Source: Oribacterium sp. | GTDB taxonomy: Bacteria; Bacillota_A; Clostridia; Lachnospirales; Lachnospiraceae | DNA length: 64,000 bases | Assembly (NCBI GenBank): GCA_017940955.1 | Contig: JAGAXP010000273.1 | Span: 20,757 to 84,756 of the forward strand | Direction: 5' to 3' | Shown: positions 16,377 through 45,307 of the stretch, piece by piece | Numbering within the stretch: position 1 is the stretch's first letter | Layout of the letters: each line of letters starts with the position of its first letter | Position numbers and translations under genes: made by a program | The notes under the pieces: generated by a model | What the model saw: the letters and a program-made list of their open reading frames with translations, nothing else | Databases searched by the model: none | Told to the model about the DNA's origin: nothing

Positions 16377-16608
16377 ATGAATATCACAACAACATCTATG
16401 CTTTTTTCACCCTTATCTGTTTTTGCTTTCGGCCCCTTCGGTCCCCTTGAGGATCTGGCAAGAAAGCTTATGGATTTTTTCAGAAGACTTCAATTCTTTG
16501 TTTTCTGCTGCAATCAGAAGGCAAAGAGAGCCGTAAGATCCCATATGGATTACGTTATAAACGGAGAATCCGGAATCGGAACCATCGAAATGGTGTTGAT
16601 TCTGGTAG
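16377..16608 (+). pseudogene. Flp1-type Tad pilin gene, 5' part (interrupted by the mobile element)
   Basis: The first 77 codons of an Flp pilin. A leader of about 60 residues precedes the conserved prepilin segment NGESGIGTIEMVLILV, where cleavage should occur before the hydrophobic helix. At 16603-16608 the frame meets the left copy of TGGTAG, and beyond it the reading frame runs into element DNA and stops at 16688. The rest of the gene is at 45210-45307. Joining the two parts with one TGGTAG gives ATTCTGGTAGTGTTGATC, which reads ILVVLI without a break and yields a 109-residue protein ending FDQIDSSAQSVY. The pilin is the main subunit of the Tad pilus, so the integrated state should abolish or alter pili. 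Confidence 0.92.
16603..16608 (+). repeat. Left attachment-site core (attL), TGGTAG
   Basis: Six bases shared by both ends of the element. Tn554-family elements also recombine at 6-7 bp cores. The exact crossover within the six bases cannot be read from this sequence. Confidence 0.85.
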
Positions 16609-16611
16609 AAA

Positions 16612-16622
16612 TATATACAGGT
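16612..16622 (+). repeat. Left subterminal inverted repeat TATATACAGGT
   Basis: It matches 10 of 11 bases of the reverse complement of 45186-45196. It lies 3 bases inside attL (the right partner lies 7 bases inside attR), so it is a likely recombinase arm or core-binding site. Confidence 0.6.
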
Positions 16623-16734
16623 AATTTGTATGTATTTATTGTATTTTCTAATATAGATTTAAGCAAATATCCATCAGTATATACATAGTCATCTAATTGA
16701 TGTATTTAGTGTTGATAAAATAAAAGGAGAAAAT

Positions 16735-16917
16735 ATGAGTTGCGACGTAAGATATATCGATGGCAGAAACCATATCCTTGATCTGATATCTGCCTATGTA
16801 AAAAAGGAAAGTAAGAAAAAATCCAAAAAGAAGATTCTCAACGTCTTAAAAAATAGGGAACGCCTTGAATTAGCTTTAGAAAAATTGGACCCTGGCTACT
16901 TCAATGACTATAAATAG
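16735..16917 (+). CDS. Small basic protein of unknown function at the left end of the element
   Basis: A 60-residue open frame (MSCDVRYIDGRNHILDLISA, then a lysine-rich stretch, ending LEKLDPGYFNDYK). An AAAAGGAG ribosome binding site stands five bases before the ATG, and a strong bidirectional terminator follows about 50 bases downstream, both of which support real expression. It is the first gene inside attL and the only plus-strand gene at this end. The cluster KKESKKKSKKK suggests nucleic-acid contact, which is only an inference. It may act in recombination or its control. Confidence 0.6.
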   Translation: MSCDVRYIDGRNHILDLISAYVKKESKKKSKKKILNVLKNRERLELALEKLDPGYFNDYK

Positions 16918-16970
16918 CCAGTGGTTTATTTGGGATTTGCTCAATAAACTTGACACAACCGAATACATAA

Positions 16971-17012
16971 AAATATGCCAATGACTGAAATCATTCAGTC
17001 ATTGGCATATTT
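16971..17012. terminator. Bidirectional terminator between the small plus-strand gene and the ADP-ribosyltransferase gene
   Basis: Perfect 18-bp inverted repeat (16971-16988 and 16995-17012), loop AATCAT, flanked by A-rich and T-rich sequence on the two sides. The stop codon of the ADP-ribosyltransferase gene (16995-16997) lies inside the right arm. Confidence 0.85.
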
Positions 17013-17648
17013 TATTAGTTGAAATTCATATATACGCGCTTTTTTTATTATATTTTTATGATGACCTATATATTTTAAGTGCTGTTTCTCTGGAAAGAGC
17101 ATCTCATACTCCCCTCTGTCTTTAATAAAATCTACACCTAATACATGGATTCCTTGAGGTACATAAATCTTTAGAAGGTCTGTATAACTTGAATTATCTT
17201 CTAGTAAGCTTTCCTTTAATAATGATGTACTCATAAAACCTTTTTCAATATATGCATTATATTCTTTCACACTTTGCATAATTATATTTAATGTTTTCTC
17301 ATCTATAGCTCTGTATACAACAATATCTTCTGGCAAAGTAGGTGCGCAATATATTATTTCATTAATCCGATCTATAAGCATATCAAGGTCATATCTTCTG
17401 TAATCATCTTGCGGTTGCTCTATACCTCTCATATAGGCATTTACTTGAGAATAAACTTCACCAAGGTAAACTTCTATAGGTTTACCAGCATAAATCATTC
17501 TATACTCGTACGAGCAACTTTTCATTTTCTTTCTATTGATATTATATTCAGAACAATAGTCTCCATAATATCGTTTCTGAAAATCCCTTGCTTCTTCTTT
17601 TGTTCGTATTTCCCTATATTTTTTTAAATTCTCTTTTTTTCCAATCAT
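16995..17648 (-). CDS. ADP-ribosyltransferase, R-S-E class
   Basis: A 217-residue protein that transfers ADP-ribose from NAD+ to a target. The three hallmark motifs are present: Arg113 in VVYRAID, the serine motif FMSTSL at 138-143 and the E-x-E pair Glu180/Glu182 in RGEYEMLFP. An E-x-E pair is typical of arginine-modifying enzymes. There is no signal peptide, so it acts in the producing or the recipient cytoplasm. The ATG overlaps the 3' end of the sigma-like gene by 35 bases and has AGAAGGAAG just upstream. The tight overlap suggests that the two proteins are made together. Phage enzymes of this class modify RNA polymerase, and with a sigma-like partner that is a tempting but unproven target; a toxin role is the alternative. 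Confidence 0.85.
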   Translation of the reverse strand: MIGKKENLKKYREIRTKEEARDFQKRYYGDYCSEYNINRKKMKSCSYEYRMIYAGKPIEVYLGEVYSQVNAYMRGIEQPQDDYRRYDLDMLIDRINEIIYCAPTLPEDIVVYRAIDEKTLNIIMQSVKEYNAYIEKGFMSTSLLKESLLEDNSSYTDLLKIYVPQGIHVLGVDFIKDRGEYEMLFPEKQHLKYIGHHKNIIKKARIYEFQLIKYAND

Positions 17649-18498
17649 AATACTTCCTTCTACCTGTGGATTTTCGTTTAGTCCGTAGGATTCCTGTTTC
17701 TCTTGCTATATTTATAACTTCGGGCATCTCTCTTAAATGTCCTAGTGCATTTTTCTTTATCTTATTTATACGTTGTTCTGTGATTTCAAGTTCATCTGCT
17801 ATGTCTTTTAACTTTCGATTTTTATAAAAGTGTTCAATTATTACTTTTCTCTCTACATCTTTCCTTAATCGTAATATTAGTCGTACGAATGTTTCACGAT
17901 TATCTCTAATAATGATATTCATATAGTCATCAGTTTCATCTGGCATTTTCTCTATATCATCTTCTTCATTATTTTCGCTGTCTTTATCCCTGTTTATTGT
18001 ATCTATATGGTAAACAGATAGTGCGTCTTTGATCATTTGATACGTTTTTTCTCCAACTCCAAGTAACTTAGCGATATATTTTTCCGATGGTGAATTTCCA
18101 TAATTTTCTATTTGATATTTTGTAATGATATCCATATACTGGGAACATAATTTTTGTATTTTTTTTGGTATATGGATAAGGTGGTTATTACTGATCCAAT
18201 CAAGTATCTTTGATTCTATTTTCCAAACCGCATATGTACTAAATGCAACTTCTCTCGATGCATCAAAAGCATCTGCTGCCTCCCATATTCCCTCAGCTGA
18301 TATACCCCTAATATCATCCATATCGTATTCATTCAAATCATTTTTTAATATAGTATATTTCCTAATCAGTTCCTCAATTAAGCCCTGGTTCTGAAAAATG
18401 AGCTGTCCTATTGTCTCATTTGCTCTATATATTTCATTTTGATGCTTGTATTTTTTATACTGCGCAACAAGTTCCTCATTAGCTACTTTTTTCGTCAT
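17614..18498 (-). CDS. Sigma-70 family-like RNA polymerase sigma factor
   Basis: A 294-residue protein. Region 2-like sequence at ~30-105 includes QGLIEELIRKY, DDIRGISAEGIWEAADAFD and FSTYAVWKIESKILDWI, the usual core-binding and -10 recognition pattern. A linker with acidic sequence follows at ~160-185. Region 4-like sequence at ~210-265 (VIIEHFYKNRKLKDIADELEITEQRINKIKKNALGHLR) would contact a -35 element. The basic C-terminal tail (KRKSTGRRKYYDWKKREFKKI) is unusual. A 20-base gap separates it from the ParR-like gene, and its 3' end overlaps the ADP-ribosyltransferase gene. It may direct RNA polymerase to element promoters; the shared motif seen upstream of three element operons is a candidate target. 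Confidence 0.85.
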   Translation of the reverse strand: MTKKVANEELVAQYKKYKHQNEIYRANETIGQLIFQNQGLIEELIRKYTILKNDLNEYDMDDIRGISAEGIWEAADAFDASREVAFSTYAVWKIESKILDWISNNHLIHIPKKIQKLCSQYMDIITKYQIENYGNSPSEKYIAKLLGVGEKTYQMIKDALSVYHIDTINRDKDSENNEEDDIEKMPDETDDYMNIIIRDNRETFVRLILRLRKDVERKVIIEHFYKNRKLKDIADELEITEQRINKIKKNALGHLREMPEVINIARETGILRTKRKSTGRRKYYDWKKREFKKI

Positions 18499-18518
18499 AC
18501 AATAACCTCCTTATCTTT

Positions 18519-18857
18519 TTATAGCGTATCCATAAAGCTGAGTGCTTTATGGTAAAATTCATCATTATTATTCTTAGTCTCGCTGTCATATTTTTGATCC
18601 TCCTTTATGTTGTTATTACTGCTATCAACAACATTTATTTCTTTCATTCTGTTGACAATATGCTCTGCCAACTCTTCAATCTCCTTGCTGCCAATTCCAA
18701 GAGGCGCTTTCTCCTCTTGGGAATATGAGTTTATGGCAGCTATTATCATTGCACGAGAACTTGTAAAACCAAATTTTTTATAATTGTTAAGTTTTTCTAA
18801 TGCGTTAATATCATCCGACACATCCTCATAAAATCGAACCGTCGTCTGTTTCATCAA
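18519..18857 (-). CDS. ParR-like DNA-binding adaptor
   Basis: A 112-residue protein. The N-terminus MMKQTTVRFYEDVSDDINAL resembles a ribbon-helix-helix DNA-binding strand and helix; the C-terminal part is acidic and low-complexity, ending in a short hydrophobic-aromatic tail (FYHKALSFMDTL), a layout that fits ParR adaptors whose tail contacts the ParM filament. The ATG overlaps the stop of the ParM gene by four bases. In plasmids the parM-parR order is the same. Sequence similarity alone would be weak, and the assignment rests on size, fold signs and position. Confidence 0.7.
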   Translation of the reverse strand: MMKQTTVRFYEDVSDDINALEKLNNYKKFGFTSSRAMIIAAINSYSQEEKAPLGIGSKEIEELAEHIVNRMKEINVVDSSNNNIKEDQKYDSETKNNNDEFYHKALSFMDTL

Positions 18858-19762
18858 CTCACCGCCTTATATTTATGGGCAAGGATATCCTCAAATCCTT
18901 TTGCGTTGATACAAACATCTTCAATTATGGTTATATTTTCTGTTAAATCTCTACCAAAATTCTTAATTACAGACGCTCCTCCTCCAATGAATACAAACTC
19001 AGTCAAAGTTGAGTTAAACTTAAGAGTATTCAGGTTATTCATAACACCTTCGACATATCCGAAAAGACCGTCCTGTATCACATCAAGATATTCCCGATTG
19101 ATATTACTGGTTCCATGTATCATTACATCTTTAACAATCGCCTCGTCTGCTTCCTCCCCGAACTTCTGTCGTAGATTCTCGTTTATTTCAGACATTGCAG
19201 TTAAGGTCCCAAGTGAAAGGCTTTTGCAACGGCTGACATCAGGCTGTCCTTCTGTAATAGGAAGGATATCTATAGTCCAACTTCCCACATCGACAACTAC
19301 CGTTGTCATCCCAAATGTTCCGAGTAGACTAACAACCGCTGCATATCCCTGCGGAAATACATCTACGCTGATGATATTTGCCAAATAATTAACACCTTCA
19401 TATCTAAAATTCATTTTTCGGTTCTTCATATAATAATCATGGCACTCCCGTTTATCTTTGCCCATCATCGTAAGCGGTAAGCCAACACCCAAGCGTATGT
19501 CTCCTGATGTTATTCCCAAAGTTTTGAACTTTTCACCGATCGCAGCCATAGTCGATATCCGCATATCCTCATTATCCATTTTGGATTTCTGTATCTCCAT
19601 TTTAGATATGCCTACAGCGTAATGCTGACCATTCCAACTCAGCGTCTTTGTCTCAATCGGGGGTTTTGTTGCCAGCATTTTGACACCCGACGGCATCACG
19701 AATCCTGTGTCTCCCTTGGTGTTGCCATTGCCATAATCTACTCCAACTAATATTGCATCCAT
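18854..19762 (-). CDS. Actin-like plasmid segregation ATPase ParM/StbA family
   Basis: A 302-residue actin-fold ATPase. Phosphate-1 motif VGVDYGNGNTKG is at the N-terminus, phosphate-2 motif VVVDVGSWTIDI is near residue 165, and the adenosine motif FIGGGASVI is near residue 260. ParM filaments push apart DNA copies held by ParR at a centromere. It starts 11 bases after the DUF6262 gene and overlaps parR, so they are one operon. A partition system is unusual in an integrated element with no recognised replication gene. It hints that the excised circle replicates or is at least segregated. Confidence 0.9.
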   Translation of the reverse strand: MDAILVGVDYGNGNTKGDTGFVMPSGVKMLATKPPIETKTLSWNGQHYAVGISKMEIQKSKMDNEDMRISTMAAIGEKFKTLGITSGDIRLGVGLPLTMMGKDKRECHDYYMKNRKMNFRYEGVNYLANIISVDVFPQGYAAVVSLLGTFGMTTVVVDVGSWTIDILPITEGQPDVSRCKSLSLGTLTAMSEINENLRQKFGEEADEAIVKDVMIHGTSNINREYLDVIQDGLFGYVEGVMNNLNTLKFNSTLTEFVFIGGGASVIKNFGRDLTENITIIEDVCINAKGFEDILAHKYKAVS

Positions 19763-19773
19763 GATTTTTTCTC

Positions 19774-20163
19774 CTATAATTCCTTTAGCGTTGATACCAA
19801 GTTTACTTGCGCAGCCTTTTTTAGCTTCTGAATCTCTGTTTTCTGTTGGGATATTATCGACTCTTTCTCAGCAAGCTTTTTCTTTAGAAGCTCTATTTCC
19901 CGGTCCATAGCTTTGGTAATTACGATCTTCTGTGGCGCCACAAAGGATTTACCATACTGCAACTCCTGCAATCTAACCAACTCGCTGTGAACAACCGCGT
20001 TGTTATAAAAAAATGCTCTAGATAAACCTGTCTTTTTAACTAGCGTACAAACCACCACCTGCTCATCATTGCTAAACATCTTGTGCATAACAGCTATGGC
20101 TTTATCGACCTTCTCCTGACTTGTCTGACGGTTCCGGATTACCATGTTTTCATACTTTTCCAT
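19774..20163 (-). CDS. DUF6262/TnpC-like protein
   Basis: A 129-residue protein. The N-terminal half has a helix-turn-helix look (VCTLVKKTGLSRAFFYNNAVVHSEL); the C-terminal half is a coiled coil (REIELLKKKLAEKESIISQQ). This fits DUF6262 proteins, which include TnpC of Tn554 (125 residues), a factor that promotes and orients transposition. Here it is separated from the recombinases by 108 bases with its own promoter-like motif, and it heads the partition/sigma/ART operon. GTAGGAGG precedes the ATG. The alternative reading is a plain DNA-binding partition accessory. Confidence 0.7.
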   Translation of the reverse strand: MEKYENMVIRNRQTSQEKVDKAIAVMHKMFSNDEQVVVCTLVKKTGLSRAFFYNNAVVHSELVRLQELQYGKSFVAPQKIVITKAMDREIELLKKKLAEKESIISQQKTEIQKLKKAAQVNLVSTLKEL

Positions 20164-20183
20164 TTGTTTATCCTCCTACTTAT

Positions 20184-20213
20184 ATTATCGTTGATTTTGT
20201 ACGAAAATAAACA
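20184..20213 (-). promoter_or_regulatory. Shared promoter-like motif, copy 1 (DUF6262-parM-parR-sigma-ART operon)
   Basis: On the minus strand TGTTTA-N18-GATAAT, with TTTTCG after the first box and AACGATAATAT at the second. It lies about 20 bases before the ATG at 20163. Related copies precede the recombinase operon and the xis-like/T4CP operon. Confidence 0.55.
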
Positions 20214-20271
20214 CACATTGAATTTCTTGTATTTACTGTATTAGATATTATATATTGTATATCTGTTTCGT

Positions 20272-21765: not shown

Positions 21766-21766
21766 T

Positions 21767-28807: not shown

Positions 28808-31800
28808 TTATTCGGTCAAATCTATTTTACGGATAGTCTTTTCAATAAGGTTCCGTTCTTCCTCTGTAAGTCCGTACTTCTCATAAAGATCCTCGTCCGT
28901 CCAAGGTCTACTGAAATCAAGATATGGAACAAATATAAAGTTCCCTTTTGAAAGATGTACTGATGAAAATGTCGTTCTCATCATATATCTGGCAAATTTT
29001 CCTATGAGAAAATTAAGGAAGTTTACTGCCTCGTTTTCAGTGTCAAAGAACCCCACATTAAGGTAAGAAAAGCTATCTATCTGCCCAGGCTTTAATATCA
29101 TCGGACCAGAAATACAACGATATCCATTCTCTGGTTGCACACCCGTTTCACCACCTTGCGCAACAAGAATTGATATTTTAATTTTGTACTTATCTATAAG
29201 ATCTACATTCTTTTTGACTTTACTCCGCTCAATATAACTGAATCCCTGACTGTTAAAGCCTACACTATGTAATAATTCAATGTCACCATCCTTATATTTG
29301 TCGTGTCCTTTTTCTTTAGAAGGTATTCCGAAAGTATCTAAGGGAGATACGAGTTCATCCAAAAAGCGATCTGTCTGAGACAAAACTTTTTTAATTATTG
29401 GGATGGATACATTTGTACGCACAAATAGATTTCCAAATTCATCTAGGCTACGCTCCATCGTATTTCTCTCGTTTGAAACAATATTTGTTATCTCACAATC
29501 TCCCTCATGCCCTTTGCTCCATAGGAAATAGCATAGACCTCCTGCAATTTCCACAGTCGGGAAACACTCCTTTGCATTATAAAAGTCTACAAGCTTGATG
29601 AGATGTTTATCATGGATCATGGAATCTCTGAAGTCATCCAGATTCATCCCTCCATTGTACCATCTTGCCGGAATTATCATTGAAACGTATTCTGAATTGA
29701 GCCTCTTTGCCTGATCAACAAAGAGGTTAAATATAGGCTTTGCCTGCTTCGCTGCTTTTCCTGTATCTATCCCGCCGTTGGTTGTTGATTGATATGGGGG
29801 ATTGCCGACTATCGCATCAAATGTCATTGTTTTACCCTCTTTTTTCCAATAGTTTGTTTTTAACACCTTATCCGTAAAGAGCTGTCCTTTATTGGTCAGG
29901 GTGTTGATAAGGTCATCAAAATAATGAGCATTTACATCCGCATTTTCAGAATACCCCACAAGCGTTCTTTTTGTAATACTCTTTGCCATTGGTGTTTTGC
30001 ATACTACGAAGATATTTTCAGAAACTGTTTCAGACCATAACTCGCGTTGCTTTTCAAGTGACCGTTCTTCTTCCGGCAGATTGTCCAATTTTGCCCGATA
30101 CACACTATATGCCACATACAGAGGATATAGTCCTGTCTTTGAATTGATCTCCAGTATTTGCGTATCCTCCTTAAAGAATACATCCTGCGTCACTTGCCCC
30201 TGATCAACAAAGCGCGGTTCATCTAAGATGTTATCTTCCACATGGCTCTCACCAAAGAAGTCCCAACCACCAAGACAGTCGCTCATATGCATATTAACGA
30301 CACGCCACGGAGTAAGCACCGTCTCCTTGTCCGGATTTTTGAAATACTTGAACAGACTGGCAATCTTAATAACTCTGTCAGTCGGATTATATGTATCTGC
30401 TTCCTTGGCTATATTACGGATCCGCCTTCCTGCAGCAATGAATACCTCTTCATCGTAATACTGTTGGAACTCCTTGAACTTCTCCTTTGTAACACCATTT
30501 GGCATGAACTCCTCCCATGAGTTATCATCCACTAGCTCAACAAAGCGATCCAGCGTTATCTCTTCATCATACGGAATATCCGCGCCATATATCAGCAGCG
30601 GCATCCTGATTGAGATACCTCGCAGAATACTTATGGCATCGTTCCGGAGCTTCTTCATCTTCTTCATTTTTTCCAGACGAGCCTTCTCTTCTTCTGTCAG
30701 TTGCTTATTTGGTTTCTTTTGTAGCTTCTCTATCTGCTCATATTCTTCATTAGTCAGACCTTGATCATTGACCGTAATATCATTCTGCTTCGTCGCCGCC
30801 TTGGATGTACCAATAATGCCTTTCAGTTCATCAAACTTTGCTATATCTGATTCCTGTAACTTGAAAAGCTCATCATTATACAGGTTGCTATCATCAAATC
30901 CATTCCTCACCACCTTATCAGCGTATGCTCTCTTCAGCTGTTGCAGAAGCCTTGTGGCACTATACTCTTTCATCTCGGATCCGGACACCGCAATTACAGG
31001 ACAGTAATTGAGGAATTTTCCCATAATAGCGGAATCCCCCTCTTTTTTCTTTCCTGCCTTTGCAGATACAGATACGGCGCTGGATACCATCTTAAGTGTC
31101 CGATCCGGAGCAAAATCAAATACATAGCTGGTCTCTTTTATCTTTCCGTTCTCGTTACATGGCGACTGAACACGGAAAATTGTCTGTAAATAGTTCGCTG
31201 CTGATGTTGAAAAGGATCCGGCAAGCATGAACACACCTGTCCATTCCTTGACCGTTACTCCCGTTGTCAGCTTTCCACAGGATAATGTAATGGTATATCC
31301 ATCTTTTCCTGCCGCCTTGATGGCTTTACGAACCTTCTTAAGAGCTTCCTCCGACTTCTCTTCTTCGTCACCGTCTCCGGCAACATTGACGATATCAAAC
31401 TGTCCGTTTCCAAAGATATCATTTTTAAGCATCAGTTTCTTTAATGCCTTGGCTTCTCTGACACCAGGCACCATCCAGAGAGTATGTTTAAACAGTTCCC
31501 TGTATTCCTTATTTGAATATGGATAGCTGCTATCATCTTCTTTTGTCATAAGATACAGAAAACTTGATACATCCGCTTCATGGACAAAATCACCGACACT
31601 TGCACCTTCAGGCATATCCGCATAATCGTGGCTAAAATCTCCGGTCCATGTACGGAAAAACTCGTGGAAATTAAAGGCTTTATCTTCAAATGTAATATAA
31701 TTGCTGTTGTGGAGGATATCTCCAAGATCATAAGTATATATACGCAGCTCCGGCAGCTCCTCATAAGGATTCGAGTCGCCAAAGTGAAGCTTATCCCACT

Positions 31801-32845
31801 CAGACTTGCACTCCTGCTCCATGATATAGTCCCATGTATAGATGGAATCTTCGCCATAGTCCGTCAAAATGTTAAAGGGCGTTCCCGATAACGCAAGAAA
31901 CTTTGTTCCGAACCCTTCCTTTACGACAGCCTTTACTGTATCTTCGCCGAGTGCCGTTGTGGTTCCTTCATGCGCTTCATCCACGATCACACAATCCCAA
32001 ACGGTATCAAAAACGACATTATTCTTGTCAAACTTACCGCCTACCTGTTCAGATCCTCTAAGATCCTGTACAGATGCAAAATATATAAACGGGTGCTCTT
32101 TCTTAAGAAGGTCATCCAGCGTATATCCGGATGCTTTTGACCCATATATGTATTCTTTCTTTTCTGCAAATATCTTTGTAAAGTCCTCATACCATCCAGC
32201 ATCCACGACCGGACGATGAGTCATGATGATAGTCTTCTTGAAACCACATTGCTTCACAATCTCCAAAGATACAAAAGTCTTTCCGTAACGCATTTTAGCG
32301 TTTATGAGGAAACGGTCAGCCTTCTTAAAATGCTTTACGACCTTTGTGATGCACTCTGCCTGTTCCGGTCTGAAGATGATTGGAGCATATTTTATGACAT
32401 CTGTATTACTGAGATTTGAATATCCCTTCTTTACGGCATCAATGGCTTTCTTTGCCGTTTCAACATCTATTTCAAACCATTCTTTTCCAGTAGTTTCTCC
32501 AAGTTCAACATTCTCAATACCGGAGTTCTTCAGCACCGCATGAACCTGGTGATCTCTGAAAGCCTCAATTCCTATCTTTCCATCTTTATTCTTTACACTT
32601 CTAACTGCAAGCTCTGTATGCAACAGCTTCGGAGTAAGTCCTGCTGTATTTGTGTAAGACTTTATTCTTGCAAGGGCAGCTTGATTCAGTTCACGACAAT
32701 TTGGAGACAGTACATCAATAGATAGCTCTGTCTTTACTGTAGCATCTCCGACCTTCACATATCCGTTATATGCTGGATTATTTGCCGCCGTCCATACATA
32801 TATGACTTTATACTCAAAGGCATTCTTGAACCCCGTGTTTTCCAT
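28808..32845 (-). CDS. Single-chain restriction-like protein: GIY-YIG-like nuclease, DEAH helicase, N6-adenine methylase
   Basis: A 1345-residue protein. The N-terminus (~12-110) resembles a T5orf172/GIY-YIG nuclease (YVWTAANNPAYNGYVKVGD, LLHTELAVRS, FRDHQVHAVL). A superfamily 2 helicase follows: INAKMRYGKTF (Walker A, ~180-190), CVIVDEAHEG (DEAH, ~287-294), ALSGTPF, and a late FRVQSP box. At ~870-950 a methylase starts (WRVVNMHMSD, ILEINSKTGLYPLYVAYSVYR as a possible SAM loop), with the adenine-methylase motif AIVGNPPYQ near 1012. The tail should recognise target DNA. The layout nuclease-helicase-methylase-target domain recalls Type ISP enzymes (LlaBIII), but with a different nuclease. It probably restricts unmodified DNA and protects the element. 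Confidence 0.85.
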   Translation of the reverse strand: MENTGFKNAFEYKVIYVWTAANNPAYNGYVKVGDATVKTELSIDVLSPNCRELNQAALARIKSYTNTAGLTPKLLHTELAVRSVKNKDGKIGIEAFRDHQVHAVLKNSGIENVELGETTGKEWFEIDVETAKKAIDAVKKGYSNLSNTDVIKYAPIIFRPEQAECITKVVKHFKKADRFLINAKMRYGKTFVSLEIVKQCGFKKTIIMTHRPVVDAGWYEDFTKIFAEKKEYIYGSKASGYTLDDLLKKEHPFIYFASVQDLRGSEQVGGKFDKNNVVFDTVWDCVIVDEAHEGTTTALGEDTVKAVVKEGFGTKFLALSGTPFNILTDYGEDSIYTWDYIMEQECKSEWDKLHFGDSNPYEELPELRIYTYDLGDILHNSNYITFEDKAFNFHEFFRTWTGDFSHDYADMPEGASVGDFVHEADVSSFLYLMTKEDDSSYPYSNKEYRELFKHTLWMVPGVREAKALKKLMLKNDIFGNGQFDIVNVAGDGDEEEKSEEALKKVRKAIKAAGKDGYTITLSCGKLTTGVTVKEWTGVFMLAGSFSTSAANYLQTIFRVQSPCNENGKIKETSYVFDFAPDRTLKMVSSAVSVSAKAGKKKEGDSAIMGKFLNYCPVIAVSGSEMKEYSATRLLQQLKRAYADKVVRNGFDDSNLYNDELFKLQESDIAKFDELKGIIGTSKAATKQNDITVNDQGLTNEEYEQIEKLQKKPNKQLTEEEKARLEKMKKMKKLRNDAISILRGISIRMPLLIYGADIPYDEEITLDRFVELVDDNSWEEFMPNGVTKEKFKEFQQYYDEEVFIAAGRRIRNIAKEADTYNPTDRVIKIASLFKYFKNPDKETVLTPWRVVNMHMSDCLGGWDFFGESHVEDNILDEPRFVDQGQVTQDVFFKEDTQILEINSKTGLYPLYVAYSVYRAKLDNLPEEERSLEKQRELWSETVSENIFVVCKTPMAKSITKRTLVGYSENADVNAHYFDDLINTLTNKGQLFTDKVLKTNYWKKEGKTMTFDAIVGNPPYQSTTNGGIDTGKAAKQAKPIFNLFVDQAKRLNSEYVSMIIPARWYNGGMNLDDFRDSMIHDKHLIKLVDFYNAKECFPTVEIAGGLCYFLWSKGHEGDCEITNIVSNERNTMERSLDEFGNLFVRTNVSIPIIKKVLSQTDRFLDELVSPLDTFGIPSKEKGHDKYKDGDIELLHSVGFNSQGFSYIERSKVKKNVDLIDKYKIKISILVAQGGETGVQPENGYRCISGPMILKPGQIDSFSYLNVGFFDTENEAVNFLNFLIGKFARYMMRTTFSSVHLSKGNFIFVPYLDFSRPWTDEDLYEKYGLTEEERNLIEKTIRKIDLTE

Positions 32846-32848: not shown

Positions 32849-33796
32849 TCACTCCTTAATCATTGATCTAAACTCTATGCTTTCATTTGACTGCCAGTCA
32901 AATATCTTGCATGGTACCGCTTCCTGTTCTTCCTTCTCATATAATCCTGATTCCTCACCAAATATATCAAAGAGAGATATCTGTGAGTATTCAGGATCCC
33001 GGAAACTATATGGAACTGTCATGGTGATACCGTCCATTTGCCATATATTCCATGCGACAATGTTAGCTATCTTCTTCTGTTGCATAAGAGTTGGCTCTTT
33101 CCCAAATTTCAACTCCATATTATCACAATAGGTATATAACAAGTTTTCCCTTGCTAACAGCACATTATCCCCCTGATATTCATAACCGTATGTACTCTGA
33201 AAAGCTCTTATAACCCATTTCTGCCATTCCGTCTCGTTATCTACGTTCTCGTTTATAATACGCATCTTCCGGTCAAGGATCCCTATTCTGTCCCTTGTCG
33301 GGATAAAATCGCCTGTCACCGTATCATATCTATTTACAAGATAAGGTGCTTCGCCGCAACTTATCTCTAATCTTTTTGAGTCAACATATTGTTGCCATGA
33401 CTTTCCCTTGGGAAAACGAACTCGCCGCCTAACCACCTTCCATGTGTTTCCTTCTGACTTACTAAAAACGCCAGATCTTCCAAACCATGCATCATCAACG
33501 AGATTGTTCTGCTCATTGACTATCCATGTGGGCGTAAAGACTTCTGCCTTATCCCTTGTTCTTTTGATTTGTTCCTCTGTTGACTTTGCCACCCTTGGTT
33601 GAATTAGCTGAGTGTTGCTAGCGATGATAAGCTGTGGCACCATCTCTTGTTCAGCTTGATACCCTTCCCCAAAAGAAGAATAGTTGTCTGTACACCACCT
33701 AATATATCTTCCAGTTGTTTTATCTTTCAGAAGAATCTCTAACAGGTCAAGGCTCCTATCAGCAATATGCTGTTCAATAACATCTATGCCTATCAT
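32849..33796 (-). CDS. Methylase-like partner protein of the restriction system
   Basis: A 315-residue protein. It contains DKAEVFTPTWIVNEQ, like motif X of gamma-class adenine methylases, and LEISCGEAPYLVNRYD, which resembles a variant of the SAM-binding motif I. The NPPY catalytic motif is absent, so it cannot be a full methylase by itself. It ends three bases before the start of the 1345-residue gene. A role as a specificity, modification or SAM-binding subunit of that protein is the most likely reading. The neighbouring proteins of this class are often annotated as restriction subunit M. Confidence 0.75.
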   Translation of the reverse strand: MIGIDVIEQHIADRSLDLLEILLKDKTTGRYIRWCTDNYSSFGEGYQAEQEMVPQLIIASNTQLIQPRVAKSTEEQIKRTRDKAEVFTPTWIVNEQNNLVDDAWFGRSGVFSKSEGNTWKVVRRRVRFPKGKSWQQYVDSKRLEISCGEAPYLVNRYDTVTGDFIPTRDRIGILDRKMRIINENVDNETEWQKWVIRAFQSTYGYEYQGDNVLLARENLLYTYCDNMELKFGKEPTLMQQKKIANIVAWNIWQMDGITMTVPYSFRDPEYSQISLFDIFGEESGLYEKEEQEAVPCKIFDWQSNESIEFRSMIKE

Positions 33797-34200: not shown

Positions 34201-36036
34201 TTAACGATGATGGTGATTAGACTTCTTCTTACTAAGTTCCGGTGTCTGTTCTTCCTTCTGTTTTGCCGAAACTTTATTATCTCTTATAAGCTGCTTGATA
34301 TTTACTTTTTTTGCCTTGATTCCCAAATTTTCATCTGTATCACGCCTTGCATCAGCAAACTTACCTTCTTCAAAACCATACCCATATTTCTCCTTTAACT
34401 TCGATTTGGTAGCCGTTTCCATTTCAGATCTGGCAACCTCCCGCCTCTCCCGAAGTTCTTCAGTAATAGAGTGGTCTTCTTTTCTAATCTCGGATTGATA
34501 ATCTGCCAAAAGCTGTTTATTATCCTGCTGAAGACGATTCACAGTAGTTTCCATCTTCTCATAATCCTTATACTTCGCTGAATAGTCTGCCGCCGCTTCC
34601 TGATATTCGGGATCTGAAGCATAACCACACATCCTTCTGATACTCTGCATATAATCCTTCCGAGTCTCTATCTGTTCCTGAAGCTCCTGTATCTGCTCCT
34701 GCAACTGTTTTTTCTTCAAGAACTGAATAGGCGTGCAGGCGACAAGCTCTTTTTTCAGCTTCTTTATTTCCTTGGCGGCCTTTTCGTTTGCTTTTTCAGC
34801 CTTGAATATTTCCACACGATATTTTTCAAGACGCGCACCTATGGGATTCATCTTTGATGCCATAAATCTCATATCATGTGATAAGATAGATTCTTCATAT
34901 TTGTTACCGATAATTTTTGCACGGATACCTTCCAATTTTCTTGCAAGCTCACCAACAAAATCCTTCACAGCTTCAACCATAGCATCAATCTTAGCCTTAA
35001 GTTCCCTAACGAACCTGTTATGCTCTTTTATCTGCTTATTGATATTACCAATATCAGAATGTACAACATAAGCCTCCGGCTTACCCTCGTGAATCTCTCT
35101 TTCAGCCCTGCGCTCCATATTGGTAGCAGCAGTACCCATGTGAAGGGTAGGAAGTTCATCTTCACATCCCTGGTCTTTGAATGAGCGACAGTCTATACGT
35201 GTCTCTGAATTGAGGCTTGCAAACTTATCATTTACGACTTTTTCCCAATGCTGCCGCCACTCAAAAATCCTGTCCTTGCTATCCCAATACTCTATGATTT
35301 CATTTTTTCTGCCATAGGGAGTAGTCTTCGGAGAACGATTCACCCGTTCAAGTCCACGTTCCTGACCTTCCTCTGCCGTGAGCCATACTTTTTTCTTTCC
35401 TTCAGTATATTTATACTGTTTTTTCCATCCATCTTCTTTTGCTTCCTTAAACTCCTGGGCAGTAAATCCTTTTTCTTCGCCATCCCTTATACAAAGGTAT
35501 TCTGTCTTGGATTTAGTAAGCCACTTGCCTTTTTCATCCATCGGACGCATTGTAACCATGATATGGGCATGAGGATTGATAAACTGCATCTTGCTGACAT
35601 CCTTTGTGGGGTTCCCGTCTTTATCAATAGGCTGGTGCCTGTCATTCACGACGGGAGGATTATGAATAGCTATATCTACAATCATACCTTGTGATACAAG
35701 TTTTTCTCTTGCAAACTGCTCGGCGACCTCAATCTGCTGTTTCCGTGTTAGTTCAATAGGAAGTGCTAACTCAAATTCCCTACACAGCTGGGCATCCTTA
35801 CTTTTTTCCAACATCTCCACTGCATTCCATAAAGTGCTTCTATCAGAATATTCCGTTGGTGCATTATCAGGTAATATTATTTCTGTGTACTCCACCCAAT
35901 TCTTTTTTGTAAAATCGTGTTCAATACCATCATACTCATTCACAAGGTCTTCACCTGCACGATAAGCCGCAGCTGCCACAGATGACCTTCCATCATTCCT
36001 ACCTATGACCTGAACCGAACAATGATATATTGCCAT
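34201..36036 (-). CDS. MobA/MobL family relaxase (MOBQ)
   Basis: A 611-residue relaxase that nicks one strand at oriT and carries it into the recipient. The N-terminus MAIYHCSVQVIGRNDGRSSV and AAAYRAGE match MobA/MobL, and the metal-binding histidines are in INPHAHIMVTMRP (His156 and His158). Residues ~330-540 are a long coiled coil (AEKANEKAAKEIKKLKKEL), and the tail is basic. A recognisable oriT lies about 60-110 bases upstream. It is followed by a hairpin. The element lacks a mating channel, so it should use the channel of a co-resident conjugative element. Confidence 0.93.
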   Translation of the reverse strand: MAIYHCSVQVIGRNDGRSSVAAAAYRAGEDLVNEYDGIEHDFTKKNWVEYTEIILPDNAPTEYSDRSTLWNAVEMLEKSKDAQLCREFELALPIELTRKQQIEVAEQFAREKLVSQGMIVDIAIHNPPVVNDRHQPIDKDGNPTKDVSKMQFINPHAHIMVTMRPMDEKGKWLTKSKTEYLCIRDGEEKGFTAQEFKEAKEDGWKKQYKYTEGKKKVWLTAEEGQERGLERVNRSPKTTPYGRKNEIIEYWDSKDRIFEWRQHWEKVVNDKFASLNSETRIDCRSFKDQGCEDELPTLHMGTAATNMERRAEREIHEGKPEAYVVHSDIGNINKQIKEHNRFVRELKAKIDAMVEAVKDFVGELARKLEGIRAKIIGNKYEESILSHDMRFMASKMNPIGARLEKYRVEIFKAEKANEKAAKEIKKLKKELVACTPIQFLKKKQLQEQIQELQEQIETRKDYMQSIRRMCGYASDPEYQEAAADYSAKYKDYEKMETTVNRLQQDNKQLLADYQSEIRKEDHSITEELRERREVARSEMETATKSKLKEKYGYGFEEGKFADARRDTDENLGIKAKKVNIKQLIRDNKVSAKQKEEQTPELSKKKSNHHHR

Positions 36037-36532: not shown

Positions 36533-37576
36533 CTAACGGTGTCTTCCGTGTGTGTGGTTTCTGAGCAAATACTGGGCCAAAGAAGGTTCAGGTGTTGCCT
36601 CTATGGTTTGTTCTGTCTGGGGTTCCTTCATAACATGAAGGTCTTTCGATTGCTCCTTCGTTCTGTACAGATGGTTTTCTATGGAGCTGATAATATCCGA
36701 TGCGGTCTTTCGTATTATGTTCATACTGGTTTTAAGCTCTTCGAGATTCTTTCCGCTGCTCCATCCGGCGATATACCCGAAGGAGTAGTCGGAGGAATCT
36801 ATACCGAAATGCTGACAAACTGTATAGGCAACACTTTCGGCCTCGACTTCTCTGGTGTGCATGTCAGGCATATGATCCTTTTCTTTTCCGGTGTCCCTGT
36901 CGTGAAGTATTTCGTGGGCCATTTCATGGATGCAAGTCTTCAGGGTCTGTTGCTGGCTCATGCCTTCTTTGATCACTATCTTTTTGTCATCAAGGTGATA
37001 GTAGCCATGTGACATTCCCTCAAAGGCCCTGAATTCGATCGGTACGGGTGATATCGTCTTAAGGACTTCCATGAAATGGTTATATCCTTCAACATCATTC
37101 TGTAAGTCAGTCGCTATTTCAGGTAGTTTCCGGCCTTCGGTCTGTGATATGTCAAAGACAGTAGTTACCTTATAAGCGGGAACTGTGACTTCTATTCTTT
37201 CTCTGAGAGGCTGTCCATCACGTCCAAGAACAGGCTTATGAGTACGGGGGTCGATCTTATCAACGTCCTTCTTTATCTTATATGGTGAAGGGGCAAGGAT
37301 ACGGATACCCTTCTGCCCCTTCTGAACATGGCGGTCAAAGTTTTTTTCCCATGATGTATAGCCCGCAACATAGGTTGCGTCAGGCTTCTGCATGGCTATC
37401 AGCAGGGAATTACTGAAACTGTAGTTATGGAATCTGGACATGGTCCGGAGATAGTTCATGTACTTATCTGATTCGAACAGGTCCTTTATTCCACGTTCAA
37501 GTTTGTCTGTGATCTCTTTGACTCTTTCTGCCTGAGTTAATGATTTATCAGTTGTAGTACTTTCTGTCCTTTTCAT
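36533..37576 (-). CDS. ArdC-like antirestriction protein with zincin domain
   Basis: A 347-residue protein from the ATG at 37576, chosen because GGAGGAC precedes it. The N-terminal region (DLFESDKYMNYLRTMSRFHNYS, then NSLLIAMQKPDATYVAGYTSW) matches the DUF1738/ArdC single-strand DNA-binding domain. The C-terminal part is a metallopeptidase-like domain with HEMAHEILH (zinc ligands) and EVEAESVAYTVC. ArdC-type proteins protect incoming single-stranded DNA during transfer. The 5' end overlaps the preceding 47-residue frame. Confidence 0.85.
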   Translation of the reverse strand: MKRTESTTTDKSLTQAERVKEITDKLERGIKDLFESDKYMNYLRTMSRFHNYSFSNSLLIAMQKPDATYVAGYTSWEKNFDRHVQKGQKGIRILAPSPYKIKKDVDKIDPRTHKPVLGRDGQPLRERIEVTVPAYKVTTVFDISQTEGRKLPEIATDLQNDVEGYNHFMEVLKTISPVPIEFRAFEGMSHGYYHLDDKKIVIKEGMSQQQTLKTCIHEMAHEILHDRDTGKEKDHMPDMHTREVEAESVAYTVCQHFGIDSSDYSFGYIAGWSSGKNLEELKTSMNIIRKTASDIISSIENHLYRTKEQSKDLHVMKEPQTEQTIEATPEPSLAQYLLRNHTHGRHR

Positions 37577-37691
37577 CTGATTCGTCCTCCGTATCCGGCA
37601 GGACAATAAAGTCCTGCTCAGACGCGTGATCCTTGATTCTTATAAAAGTTGCGTATAAATCTGTGTAATCTGTGATATTGTGCTTTTCCAT
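37548..37691 (-). CDS. Small 47-residue protein overlapping the ArdC-like gene
   Basis: Reads MEKHNITDYTDLYATFIRIK and ends in acidic, polar sequence (LPDTEDESDEKDRKYYN). The ATG at 37691 has AAGGAGACAG upstream, and the frame stops 29 bases inside the ArdC-like gene. It lies between the DUF5688 gene and the ArdC-like gene in one operon, so it is likely expressed. No function is recognised. Confidence 0.6.
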   Translation of the reverse strand: MEKHNITDYTDLYATFIRIKDHASEQDFIVLPDTEDESDEKDRKYYN

Positions 37692-38664: not shown

Positions 38665-38667
38665 AAC

Positions 38668-39135: not shown

Positions 39136-40713
39136 TTACATATTACTTATAGTTTTGTTATATTTGACGATTTCCTCAGCCAAATGCTTCAGAACCTTGT
39201 CCTTGTAATATGGAACTTTCTTAACCCTGCTGTATCCATACGGAGTTATGAGAATCGCTTCCCCGGTATTCTTTAATGTCATAAGATCCGAAGGCTCAAC
39301 AATATCCTTTTCTTCATAAGAAACTGTTGTATTCCTGTTCCTATTGCCTCCTCCACTCCAGCTCATCTTCCTTACTTTGTACTTACCACACCATGCACAT
39401 ACAGCTTTCTGTGTTTTGCTCGATGATGCTGATAAAACTACGATATACGGGCAGTTACTCATTAAATCCGCTACCTCATTCTCGGTAAATGCTGACATTA
39501 GAGCCTCTGTGGATTGTGTTATAAGATACAGACATACTTTTCTGCTTCTTAATGTCCTTGCACCGTCAAGAAGTCTGTCCAACTTACCCGCACTTAATAT
39601 TCTTGGCAGCTCATCTATTACAAAAATAATAGGCTCAGAATCTTCAGGCCTCTTTTCAAGCTGGTATAAGGTCTGGTTGATTATCAGTTGCATTACATCG
39701 TAATATACTGATAATTTCTCTTCCCTGATTGAAAGATAAATGCTGTATCCATCCTCCAATTTCAAAGGATTAACTTTATTAGGATTGTCTTTAAAGGCGT
39801 ATCTGATATCCTGATCGTTTGCAAAAATAACGATGTGATTATTCATTTCCGCTACTATTCCTCCCAAAGTTTCATCTTCCATATCCTTAAACTGTACTAT
39901 GTAGCGGTATTCCACGGAATTATTTTTAGCATTGTCTATAATTGCCTGTATGCTTTCTTTAACCGGTCTTCCCAATATTTCGTCTATGATTCCTACGAAA
40001 TCCCTAGTTCCCTTTTTGTAATAATAAACAAGAAGCCCAATTAACAGATTTCTCGCAGAATTCTTCCAGAAAGGGTCTTTAAGATCTGCTGGCATAGAAA
40101 TCAACGAATAGGTTATCGTCTGCATTGTTTCCATAATCTGCTGTGTACTGCTATTTTCTTCAAGATTGTAAAATGGATCATACCCATATTTGCTCCTATC
40201 AGAAGGATTAAATATAAGCACGTGCTTACTTCCATATTTTGCAGACTTAAAGCTCAACTCACCCTTTATATCCACAGCAAATATTCTGGCTTTCTCATTC
40301 ACAAGTAGAGCCGGAATTACATAGGCACTCGATTTTCCTGAACCACTTCCACCTATCAAAAATACATGTCCATCCTCTTCTAGTGGTTTACATACGTAAC
40401 GTTTGCTACGCTTATCCCACCCAAGTGGTATAGTTCCAGTTATCTCTTTCCGTATCAGCTCCTTAGGAATATCTGGATACATTGCCTTATTTTTACCAGT
40501 CATTGCCACATTTTCAGATGGGGTCCCCATATGTTCTCCCCATATAAGCAAGACCGGAATAAAAGATATCATCAGGCATAACTTCCAGTTCTTCTCATCC
40601 ATAAGATATCTTGGATTTATTTCCTGAAGGTATTTAACAATAGCCGCCATCACGATAGGCTGTACCCAAATCCCGGTAGCCATAATTTTTTTAAAGATCT
40701 GTTTTTTTTTCAT
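39136..40713 (-). CDS. Type IV coupling protein (VirD4/TraG-like)
   Basis: A 525-residue ATPase that brings the relaxase-DNA complex to a conjugation channel. Two membrane segments are near the N-terminus (MATGIWVQPIVMAAIVKYL, LCLMISFIPVLLIW). Walker A is IGGSGSGKSSAYVIPALL near residue 136, Walker B is PIIFVIDELPRI, and the sequence ARIFAVDIKGEL is typical of TraG. The ATG overlaps the stop of the xis-like gene by four bases. No other channel components are found, so the element carries its own adaptor but borrows the channel. Confidence 0.92.
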   Translation of the reverse strand: MKKKQIFKKIMATGIWVQPIVMAAIVKYLQEINPRYLMDEKNWKLCLMISFIPVLLIWGEHMGTPSENVAMTGKNKAMYPDIPKELIRKEITGTIPLGWDKRSKRYVCKPLEEDGHVFLIGGSGSGKSSAYVIPALLVNEKARIFAVDIKGELSFKSAKYGSKHVLIFNPSDRSKYGYDPFYNLEENSSTQQIMETMQTITYSLISMPADLKDPFWKNSARNLLIGLLVYYYKKGTRDFVGIIDEILGRPVKESIQAIIDNAKNNSVEYRYIVQFKDMEDETLGGIVAEMNNHIVIFANDQDIRYAFKDNPNKVNPLKLEDGYSIYLSIREEKLSVYYDVMQLIINQTLYQLEKRPEDSEPIIFVIDELPRILSAGKLDRLLDGARTLRSRKVCLYLITQSTEALMSAFTENEVADLMSNCPYIVVLSASSSKTQKAVCAWCGKYKVRKMSWSGGGNRNRNTTVSYEEKDIVEPSDLMTLKNTGEAILITPYGYSRVKKVPYYKDKVLKHLAEEIVKYNKTISNM

Positions 40714-40901: not shown

Positions 40902-40935
40902 TTTTATCACTCCTTTCTTCTAACCCTCTATTGAT

Positions 40936-40965: not shown

Positions 40966-41046
40966 ACAACATAATTTACATTTATATTGATTATATTTTC
41001 ATCACATTGTATATTATTTTCGTAACTAAAGAAAAGGAGGTGCTTT

Positions 41047-42705: not shown

Positions 42706-42738
42706 AAAAATCGGTGGTAGTAATACCACCGATTTTTT
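42704..42738 (+). terminator. Terminator after the two-module regulator gene
   Basis: Stem TCGGTGGTA / TACCACCGA preceded by seven A residues and followed by seven T residues, starting inside the stop codon. It can work in both directions. Confidence 0.9.
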
Positions 42739-43562
42739 TGCACATCATAAAAATGATGAAGTAGTTTCTAGTAAATCATTTATATATTCTGCTTTCATTC
42801 ATAACCTATTTGGTTGACTGCTATTTATTTACATACTACTTGATCACCAAAGCCTTATGCGGTTTTACAACATCACCTTTTAGCATTCGTTCTATAGTCC
42901 CTGTAGCCCTTAATATTGCCTCCAAGCTAATATATGGCACCATTGAATTATTTTGCAGATAATTACTTAAATACTTTGCTGACGGATTCTTAATACCTAT
43001 ACGTTCACAAACTAACCAACACACAGACTCTGCTTCAAATTCTTTGGTTTCTTTTGAAATGCCAAATCTAGTTGGAAGGTATGATTCTTCCTTTATCACG
43101 GATTTTGAATAATACAAGTGACCGCATAAAATATGCCCAAGTTCATGACAAATTGTAGCGAATTGAGAAGAAGTATCATGATCTTCATTAACTGTTATTG
43201 AAAAAGGTACATAATACTGTTTATTTTTATAATCAAATACTTTTATCTCTTCTTTACTTTCCGCTGTTCCCGCAAGCGCTGTACCATATTTGCTTTGATA
43301 TAATTCTACCCCTAGAAAAGGTAGCGCTTTTATAAGATTATCAAATTCATAAACTGAAATAGTACCGGAATTATTAAATGGTTTCTCTAAATCTTCTGGA
43401 AACTCCTTTCCTTCTGTATCACTTAATTCATAAACATATGATACCGGTCCAAATGCTTTTAATATTATAAGCGGACTAGCTCCAGGCTTTGGGGATCTCC
43501 CATATTTATTTTTCCAATCTTTTACAGTTGCAACAAATGTGCTACCGGGTCTTTGCATATTT

Positions 43563-43570
43563 ATAAGCAT
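43563..43570 (+). repeat. Target-site duplication ATAAGCAT, left copy
   Basis: The identical 8 bases follow the right inverted repeat at 44686-44693. They are in the metallopeptidase coding region (codons for AMLI in the restored frame). Confidence 0.95.
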
Positions 43571-44685
43571 GGTGTTAGTGTGAAAATGGGTCGGTAGTGC
43601 ATTATTTTGCACGAGGCATTTGAGATAATGGTCATATCAAAGGAAAGGCGGATATGACTATGAAAGATATCAAAAAAGCCATCGACATTCTGAGGGATTT
43701 CTCCAAACAGGAAATCCTTATCATTTTCAATACTATTATGGAGAGCGTACACTCGGATAAAAAGAAAACCGAGTTGTATGACTGTCCATATTGCTCTGGT
43801 AAAAAGGTTATCCGTTATGGCAAGAAGCACGGTAAACAGCGTTTCCTCTGTAAGGAATGCCATAAAACCTACATAACTACAACCAATACAGTTATGTCAA
43901 TGTCCCATCAGAGCAAGGCAATATGGGATGCCATGATCGACGATACCATCAATGGCAATGCTCTTTCCTATAGTGAAGAACGTCTTAAAATCTCACATCA
44001 GGTTGCATTTAACATGCGGCACAAGATTCTTCTGGAGCTTGAATCTATTACTTCAGCTAATCCTAAGATGCTTGAAGATGTGAGCGAGTTAGACGAGACC
44101 TTCGTTCTTGAATGTTACAAAGGAAAGCAACTGCCTGATTCCGTAGAGCGTCCGGCACGCAAGCATGGTGCCAAAGCACAAAAACGTGGCATTTCCAATG
44201 AATACGTATGTATCTGTACCGGTGCACAGCGTAAGAGCAAAGTGATCATCAAGGCTGTAAACAGGGCAAAGCCTTCAACTGAAGAAGTTGCAAAAGTGTT
44301 CAAAGATCATATCGCTGATGGAACACTGCTTCTTACCGATGGTCTCCGTAGTTATAGCATTCTCGAAACATTGGCGGATTGTAGTATCAAGAATGTCGAA
44401 AACGAGAAGACCAGCTTTTACAATCTTAACACGGTAAATAACCTTCATTCAGTTATCAAAAAACAGTATGAATTTTACCGTGGTGTGGCCACAAAATACA
44501 TAAATCGTTACTGTGCACTATTTGAGTATATGTACCGTAAAACAGATATTTCGATTCGTGCTATAAAGGATGGTATGTTAAGACCGGGCTCTACTATACG
44601 CTACAGTATTTCAGATGTAAAAAGGTACGGCTTAACGATCATTTGATTGGAGTCATGGTTACCGACCCATTTTCCAACTAACACC
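43571..44685 (+). mobile_element. IS1595-family insertion sequence, 1115 bp
   Basis: Terminal inverted repeats of 26 bp (43571-43596 and 44660-44685, 24 of 26 matching) start GGTGTTAGT at each end. The flanks 43563-43570 and 44686-44693 are both ATAAGCAT, an 8-bp target duplication as known for IS1595. It holds one transposase gene and splits a metallopeptidase gene. Confidence 0.95.
43654..44646 (+). CDS. IS1595-family transposase
   Basis: A 330-residue transposase. A zinc ribbon at ~48-75 (CPYCSGKKVIRYGKKHGKQR then CKECHKTY) precedes a DDE-type ISXO2-like catalytic domain with DVSELDETFV, LLTDGLRSYSIL, NNLHSVIKKQY and the late KYINRYCALFEYMY helix. The length is in the family range. It appears intact, so this IS may still be active. 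AAAGG precedes the likely start. Confidence 0.93.
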   Translation: MTMKDIKKAIDILRDFSKQEILIIFNTIMESVHSDKKKTELYDCPYCSGKKVIRYGKKHGKQRFLCKECHKTYITTTNTVMSMSHQSKAIWDAMIDDTINGNALSYSEERLKISHQVAFNMRHKILLELESITSANPKMLEDVSELDETFVLECYKGKQLPDSVERPARKHGAKAQKRGISNEYVCICTGAQRKSKVIIKAVNRAKPSTEEVAKVFKDHIADGTLLLTDGLRSYSILETLADCSIKNVENEKTSFYNLNTVNNLHSVIKKQYEFYRGVATKYINRYCALFEYMYRKTDISIRAIKDGMLRPGSTIRYSISDVKRYGLTII

Positions 44686-44936
44686 ATAAGCATTGCATTA
44701 TAAGGAGCCATTTTAGGGAATCGTTTGATAAAATATAATAGTTTATTATATTCTTTTGAAGATCTATAGGTTCCTGCTTCTTCAATAAGCTTATCAAGTT
44801 CCGACTTCTTCTTATCCTTTTCCTCTTTTGTTATAGTTATATTTTGCGTTAATTGTATATCTTGTTCCTCCTCATTTTTTTCGGAGGGTCTCTTAAATAA
44901 ATCCATTAACCACATTCTGACTAATCCTCTTTTATA

Positions 44937-45203
44937 TACTAAATATATGTTTGCCTATATTCAGCTCATTCCTAAAAAATATTCTTATTTATAAATTATA
45001 TTCGACAACATTTGTAAAATGAAAAACCTATATACTTCTTGATTTATATTAGATCACATCAGTCATTTTGGTTTTTGCCGGATAATTTTAAGTTATTTCT
45101 ATAAACCAAAAATGAACGTTATCATAACTTATCTGTATATACAGTGTATTACATGTTATATCCCTTGATTAATATATGCTTTTTCACCTCTATATAAAAT
45201 TTT
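44937..45203. other. Gene-free right end of the element
   Basis: No gene is seen between the metallopeptidase start and attR. It contains an inverted repeat CATTTTGGTTT (45066-45076) with AAACCAAAAATG about 30 bases later, and the subterminal repeat at 45186-45196. It is AT-rich and a probable binding region for the recombinases. Confidence 0.5.
45186..45196 (-). repeat. Right subterminal inverted repeat
   Basis: Reads TATATAGAGGT on the minus strand, ten of eleven bases identical to the left copy at 16612-16622. Confidence 0.6.
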
Positions 45204-45209
45204 TGGTAG
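45204..45209 (+). repeat. Right attachment-site core (attR), TGGTAG
   Basis: Second copy of the core at 16603-16608. The next base continues the pilin reading frame (GTGTTGATCGCCCTT). Confidence 0.85.
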
Positions 45210-45307
45210 TGTTGATCGCCCTTGTTCTTGTATTCAAGGGAAGAATCAATGACCTCCTCACCAACATCTTCGATCAGATCGACAGCTCTGCTCAAAGCGT
45301 TTATTAA
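45210..45307 (+). pseudogene. Flp1-type Tad pilin gene, 3' part
   Basis: Encodes VLIALVLVFKGRINDLLTNI, then FDQIDSSAQSVY and TAA at 45305-45307. It completes the hydrophobic helix begun at 16377-16608. The TAA overlaps the next ATG by one base (TAATG), so loss of pilin translation by the insertion may also reduce the downstream gene. Confidence 0.92.

Follow-up and report, generated by a model that had tools for sequence, protein, structure and literature searches.

A mobile element interrupts the Flp pilin gene of a Tad locus

The window, a 64,000-nucleotide stretch of an Oribacterium sp. genome from the family Lachnospiraceae (assembly GCA_017940955.1, contig JAGAXP010000273.1, positions 20,757 to 84,756), contains a Tad (tight adherence) locus in which a 28.6-kb element (16609-45209) separates the two halves of the Flp pilin gene, flp. 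The pilin frame runs from 16377 to 16608 and continues at 45210 to a TAA stop codon at 45305-45307; the halves, of 232 and 98 nucleotides, make up 110 codons including the stop. The hexanucleotide TGGTAG is present at both borders. Judged by its genes, the element is a GInt/Tn554-like integrative mobilizable element that would work like a GInt.

11051..16180, plus strand: upstream Tad genes (prepilin peptidase, 384-aa protein, TadA, TadB, TadC)
16377..16608, plus strand: 5′ part of the Flp pilin gene, to ...GTIEMVLILV
16603..16608, no strand: left copy of the 6-bp spacer TGGTAG
45204..45209, no strand: right copy of the 6-bp spacer TGGTAG
45210..45307, plus strand: 3′ part of the Flp pilin gene, with the stop codon
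45307..48822, plus strand: downstream Tad genes (DUF5702 protein, 302-aa protein, second A24 peptidase)

In the nearest genome (G001), which matches the window at 97.6% identity over 1-16608 and at 99.5% over 45201-47429, the two stretches lie side by side, with a single TGGTAG and an open pilin frame (...GTIEMVLILVVLIALVLVFK...). The empty allele occurs naturally, and this confirms that the pilin split, the shared 6 bp and the geometry of exact restoration are real. A sequence-only reading of the window had proposed that the pilin is split, that TGGTAG lies at both ends and that excision would restore the frame exactly, and had suggested a comparison with an uninterrupted pilin locus. The geometry is borne out by G001, which carries the locus as exact removal would leave it. 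The recombinase trio named in the same reading is also present: three PF00589 proteins encoded on the minus strand are followed on that strand by a DUF6262 protein, in the order of the GInt genes ginA, ginB, ginC and ginD.

Related elements recur at one codon junction of flp and at a motif of tadA

A ginA search of 397 genomes of the family returned 29 places in 24 genomes at E <= 1e-30, and a scan of named genome contigs contributed the best 80 of its 129 loci. Together with the window these make 110 loci, some of which overlap (L130 repeats L068, L132 repeats L069, L192 repeats L086 and L194 repeats L085). In 31 of the 110 (29 distinct, window included) flp is split with the operon on the same contig, always at one codon junction, and the second pilin halves start with x|VVLIGLV or a sequence close to it. 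Three of these loci (L131, L135, L154) were missed by the first pattern and detected by translation, and L066 (G237) was counted on a first pilin half and the operon on one contig; only the second pilin half was found for L067 (G428). The tadA gene is split just before its NTGH motif in another six loci (four distinct). A search of genomes for the trio beside pilin halves, set beforehand as a check, is thus positive in 31 loci, with at least 28 genomes hit besides the window's own, a recurrence that exceeds chance; it strongly supports the proposal that pilin genes are a recurrent target and supports the further one that insertion hits a codon run conserved among pilins. Cultured carriers include Hespellia stercorisuis DSM 15480 (L137) and Coprococcus comes MSK.16.63 (L135), both flp-interrupted, and Bilifractor porci (L192), with its insertion in tadA.

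Among open PubMed Central papers, none was found to describe insertion of elements of this kind in Tad or Flp genes, and neither 'pilin' nor 'pilus' occurs in the main text of the GInt paper (PMC5385486). Plasmid and phage collections were set aside as a source of close relatives or of a circle; they yielded distant recombinases, two gut contigs excepted, and no circular form. These two unannotated contigs, from the phage collection, encode a GinA about 50% identical and show no flp half and no terminal overlap.

The spacer follows the codons of the host gene

The spacer register, set by eye, comprises bases 2-3 of one codon, the whole codon at the Val position and base 1 of the next. Both ends were read in eight flp elements: the window, G021, G193 and G251 have two identical spacers, those of G207 and G346 differ by one base, and those of G116 and G257 by two; part of this likeness is expected because both copies are pilin codons. 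Other elements have the spacers TCGTTG, TGGTCG, TACTTG and so on. Since the spacer follows the host's own codons, TGGTAG is neither a constant of the element nor a fixed core, and the rule of the sequence-only reading that copies lacking this core would refute it has to be dropped. In five tadA elements, read by eye, the spacers are identical in G193 and G338, show one mismatch in G237 and do not match in G286 and G293.

Insertions in several lineages

Recombinase 1 is 96.5-100% identical in five pairs of loci (L069/L133, L069/L134, L069/L136, L131/L134 and L070/L135), whereas the neighbouring DUF5702 proteins of these pairs are only 28-38% identical over their aligned parts. Near-identical recombinases beside Tad proteins of just 28-42% identity indicate that the insertions are independent and recent: by this comparison, the same elements have entered distant hosts at an identical codon.

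The ginA tree has 81 rows, two short sequences and 27 with a duplicate of the last 300 residues having been left out of the 110. On this tree the flp label needs eight changes and appears in deep lineages to either side of the midpoint root, and no Tad targeting is seen in a 42-row clade. For 28 loci with short flanks the tree label 'trunc' was assigned by eye, although L127, L152 and L164 hold 3-6 kb past ginD. Of 57 loci scanned in the sister clade or near it, 7 have the operon followed by an ABC-ATPase gene that is interrupted at its DEPT (Walker B) motif (L072, L141, L082, L186, L184, L168 and L183; five distinct, as L141 repeats L072 and L186 repeats L082), where the call means a DEPT motif without its upstream signature. 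Each lineage thus seems, from these sequences, to target codons that protein conservation holds constant.

Gene content and relationship to known elements

Within the element, the following features were recognized.

16609..16690, no strand: left end of the element (AAATATATACAGG...)
16995..17648, minus strand: cargo, ADP-ribosyltransferase-like protein (PF03496)
17614..18498, minus strand: sigma-70-family protein
18519..18857, minus strand: 112-aa protein, linked to the actin-like gene in relatives
18854..19762, minus strand: actin-like protein (ALP/Alp7A-like)
19774..20163, minus strand: GinD/TnpC-like small protein (DUF6262), 129 aa
20272..21852, minus strand: tyrosine recombinase 3 (GinC position), 526 aa
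21767..23731, minus strand: tyrosine recombinase 2 (GinB position), 654 aa
24041..25153, minus strand: tyrosine recombinase 1 (GinA position), 370 aa
25437..26261, plus strand: divergent XRE-type repressor-like regulator with an XisH/nuclease-like C domain
28808..32845, minus strand: cargo, type IIG-like restriction-modification protein
32849..33796, minus strand: cargo, type II methyltransferase-like protein
34201..36036, minus strand: MobQ / MobA-MobL relaxase
36533..37606, minus strand: ArdC-type antirestriction-like protein
39136..40713, minus strand: VirD4-like coupling protein
43654..44646, plus strand: IS1595-family transposase inside the element
45136..45203, no strand: right end of the element, with homology to that of L117

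The small ADP-ribosyltransferase-like cargo protein adjoins the left end, and a 552-aa protein with weak helix-turn-helix matches is encoded at 41047-42705. The actin-like protein may have a plasmid-type partitioning role. The assignment as an integrative mobilizable element rests on an integrase and a relaxase of its own (the latter scoring 233.2 bits against an NCBIfam cut-off of 200), together with the absence of a full conjugation machine from the scanned open reading frames (ORFs).

The closest match is to GInts (PMC5385486), in which all four gin genes are required for excision and integration, the cuts look 6 nt staggered, circles have been detected, and GinD is similar to the TnpC of Tn554. 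The window element shares with them the three tyrosine recombinases and small TnpC-like protein ordered A-B-C-D, a predicted 6-nt crossover, a fixed target site and restriction-modification cargo; furthermore, an ABC transporter gene houses the first GInts, and in some loci of the sister clade a cut ABC-ATPase gene follows the operon. Its ends carry an imperfect 9-nt repeat (TTCTGGTAG / TTTTGGTAG) with the identical 6-bp spacer, the published GInt repeats being slightly longer (10-17 nt). The layout differs. A GInt has its operon at the 5′ end, cargo after ginD and a short AT-rich 3′ end, whereas here the operon lies inside the element and points towards the left end: 20 kb separate the start of ginA from the right end, and the 3.2 kb from ginD to the left end hold at least four genes. 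Because of this internal operon we call the element GInt-like and do not file it as a GInt. GinC of GInts is described without its first arginine (PMC5385486); by inspection, recombinase 3 contains LLGTRISETL, and R, H-x-x-R, H and Y are kept in all three recombinases of the window. Unlike GInts, the elements described here target flp and tadA, and that of the window carries a relaxase and a coupling protein.

With the Tn554 family the element shares a TnpC-like helper, two recombinases in the TnpA and TnpB positions, a 6-bp footprint (PMC10214605) and a preferred site. Tn554 has only tnpA, tnpB and tnpC, whereas in the window a third recombinase gene stands between the B-position and TnpC-like genes and the cargo, with its mobilization genes, is far larger. 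SEs and RIT elements likewise use several tyrosine recombinases, and RIT elements are not known to have a GinD-like gene. SEs have a 6-bp spacer between short motifs at each border, one copy host-derived and the other from the previous site, and the 6-bp footprint is common to SEs and Tn554; no blast similarity of SE genes to GInt genes is reported (PMC10214605).

The window element might also be an immobile remnant in what is now a pilin pseudogene. It contains an IS1595 copy, and compared with L117, whose recombinase is 86% identical and whose right end matches, its repressor-recombinase-actin module is inverted relative to that end. Against this, the four recombination genes are full-length open frames and the two spacers are identical, which makes such decay very improbable.

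The state of flp and tadA in host genomes

A Flp pilin profile has a full or partial match in 380 of the 397 family genomes (E <= 1e-4), so that the flp target is almost always available. By the same profile, seven carriers (G021, G116, G193, G207, G237, G257 and G346) have both pilin halves, spanning profile positions 2-27 and 20-56, respectively, and no full-length pilin. G251 also has no full-length pilin; there the profile finds the second half only, and the first was seen in a separate reading of the locus. In G428 only the second half was found. A single strong full-length pilin is present in each of seven genomes in which flp is uninterrupted (G001, G210, G286, G293, G338, G044 and G343); weaker matches in other frames, at E 9e-4 and above, were not judged to be pilins. 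The idea that the element supplies a start codon to the second pilin half was dropped, as it is not general.

Among the 31 weak-scoring genomes of the 397 searched, eight more (G361, G211, G328, G110, G253, G340, G276 and G189) lack a strong ginA match but have a pilin half that ends at this same site; G340 has another pilin too. Ends of the trio type occur in G340 and G276. In G276 (L243, 1000-1300) the first pilin half and such an end lie directly before the DUF5702 gene, with no second half at E <= 0.01, an arrangement that is probably a deletion remnant. In G211, G361 and G253 (L241, L242, L246 and L247) the elements that split flp, again at this codon, have right ends (...GCCACAAATGT) unlike those of the trio elements. 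In G110, G328 and G189 (L237-L240 and L245) contigs stop only a few bases from the flp site, without element sequence, a pattern that occupied and empty alleles side by side could give. These contig ends were not accepted as proof of such a mix: none of the three genomes yielded a trio recombinase, and strain mixture or assembly practice could produce them.

The tadA gene is also broken in the flp-interrupted genomes G021, G193, G237 and probably G251, that is, in four of nine (the window and eight genomes), compared with 3 of 75 (Fisher p 0.002). Adding G428, where tadA is intact, gives four of ten (p 0.003), and leaving out G251, a contig break with no insertion seen, gives three of ten (p 0.02). 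The 75 are genomes with a TadA-like match except G021, some matching only as distant ATPases, and one of the three broken cases (G059) is a partial gene. As the sample was picked by the presence of the recombinase, this excess is a hint only. In G021 (L037, contig C16, ~534-14616) tadA is interrupted at NTGH by an element in which inspection of the sequence points to a 549-aa serine-type recombinase, a relaxase-like protein and a DNA methyltransferase-like gene. In G251 (L197 and L083) two contigs end inside tadA at NTGH, sharing only CAT.

Elements could be kept in flp and tadA because loss of the Tad pilus blocks pilus-dependent phages or competing DNA uptake. That two Tad genes are hit by different lineages, and tadA of G021 by the serine-type element, would fit such an advantage. 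The nearest precedents, prophages in comGA (PMC7029219) and comGC (PMC10383233), likewise split the ATPase or major pilin gene of a pilus at a specific site; they are phages in a competence rather than a Tad pilus system, and their targets are the functional counterparts of tadA and flp. Furthermore, Tad pili are used for DNA uptake by Liberibacters (PMC8513845) and for the adsorption of phages to Caulobacter (PMC11067988). The five distinct ABC-ATPase loci described above speak against adaptive disabling and suggest a plain preference for conserved codons, and we regard the adaptive explanation as rather unlikely. A wider reading, in our view unlikely as well, makes the Tad locus a general docking station, where several recombinase lineages (flp-type and tadA-type trios, the serine-type element in tadA and the further flp inserter of G211, G361 and G253) would insert at fixed codons and turn the pilus off reversibly, with populations mixed for piliation and excision controlled by the XisH-related repressor.

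Does the insertion act as a switch?

The sequence-only reading had also taken the insertion for a potential genetic switch, with regulated excision and re-integration toggling Tad piliation. This would resemble the skin element of sigK (in C. difficile, PMC5025042), SP-beta in spsM (PMC4191935) and the prophages in competence pilin genes: a mobile element splits a gene that excision repairs exactly. For skin and SP-beta developmentally regulated excision has been demonstrated, whereas here the geometry would allow such repair. As stated, the switch is not supported. Neither G001 nor 16 other genomes of its genus yielded a close ginA relative, and the 24 family genomes counted above carry one, so the element looks sporadic and recent rather than a fixed regulatory device; the insertions themselves are recent transfers. 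Where flp and tadA are both interrupted, two excisions would be needed, and no second pilin half was found in G276. The genomes G110, G328 and G189, in which no trio recombinase turned up, lend the switch no help. Among known systems, an empty site could not be detected in several strains that carry GInts (PMC5385486), the related SEs are described as copying out without an empty site (PMC10214605), and excision from comGC restored the gene in ~3% of cells while transformation still failed (PMC10383233). The repressor-like gene is conserved beside ginA in many relatives. The likeness of its C domain to XisH, an excision-control factor, is weak: Foldseek gives it E 0.007 and places the restriction enzyme BstEII at the top, and Z barely exceeds 7-8, the range that the tool calls common (families outside this comparison's listing were not taken as excluded). 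Considering these points together, an evolved switch is improbable.

A proposed model of site-specialised mobilizable elements

We consider it quite probable that these are site-specialised GInt/Tn554-like integrative mobilizable elements of Lachnospiraceae, several lineages of which have settled on Tad genes and knock out the pili, reversibly in principle. As suggested by the ends and by GInts, the three tyrosine recombinases and the TnpC/GinD-like helper would join a circular form to flp by crossover over the 6-bp spacer, which covers the Leu-Val-Val codons of the pilin membrane helix. Integration would split flp, leaving no intact Flp pilin, as in the checked assemblies, and the Tad pilus should be lost. 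Recombination between the two ends would restore flp exactly in the window because both spacers are identical. The element would spread between hosts by means of its relaxase and coupling protein, borrowing a conjugation machine; a helper is needed because the coupling protein is the sole conjugation-machine gene found among the scanned ORFs. Pilus loss would be mainly a side effect that hosts tolerate, flp being a dependable landing site because it is near-universal in the sampled family and its helix codons are conserved.

Several observations weigh against this model. In 73 of the 110 loci neither flp nor tadA was seen to be split: 13 have no ginD match, 12 end less than 2 kb past ginD, 40 hold 2-7 kb and eight hold more than 7 kb, which leaves many without an assigned target, and some clearly lie in other genes. 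Transfer depends on a helper, since no conjugation-machine gene but that of the coupling protein turned up in the ORF scan, which covered part of the small ORFs. For the window's own strain no circle, empty site or transfer has been observed, and we infer the loss of pili in these hosts from sequence.

In a major gut family, these results reveal a pilus system that site-specific mobile elements hit repeatedly, in many genomes. They also add mobilizable forms to the known three-recombinase elements, and a new class of target, namely codon runs fixed by protein conservation. Cultured carriers offer a natural, potentially reversible lesion of the Tad pilus in which piliation, excision and the spread of the element are directly testable.

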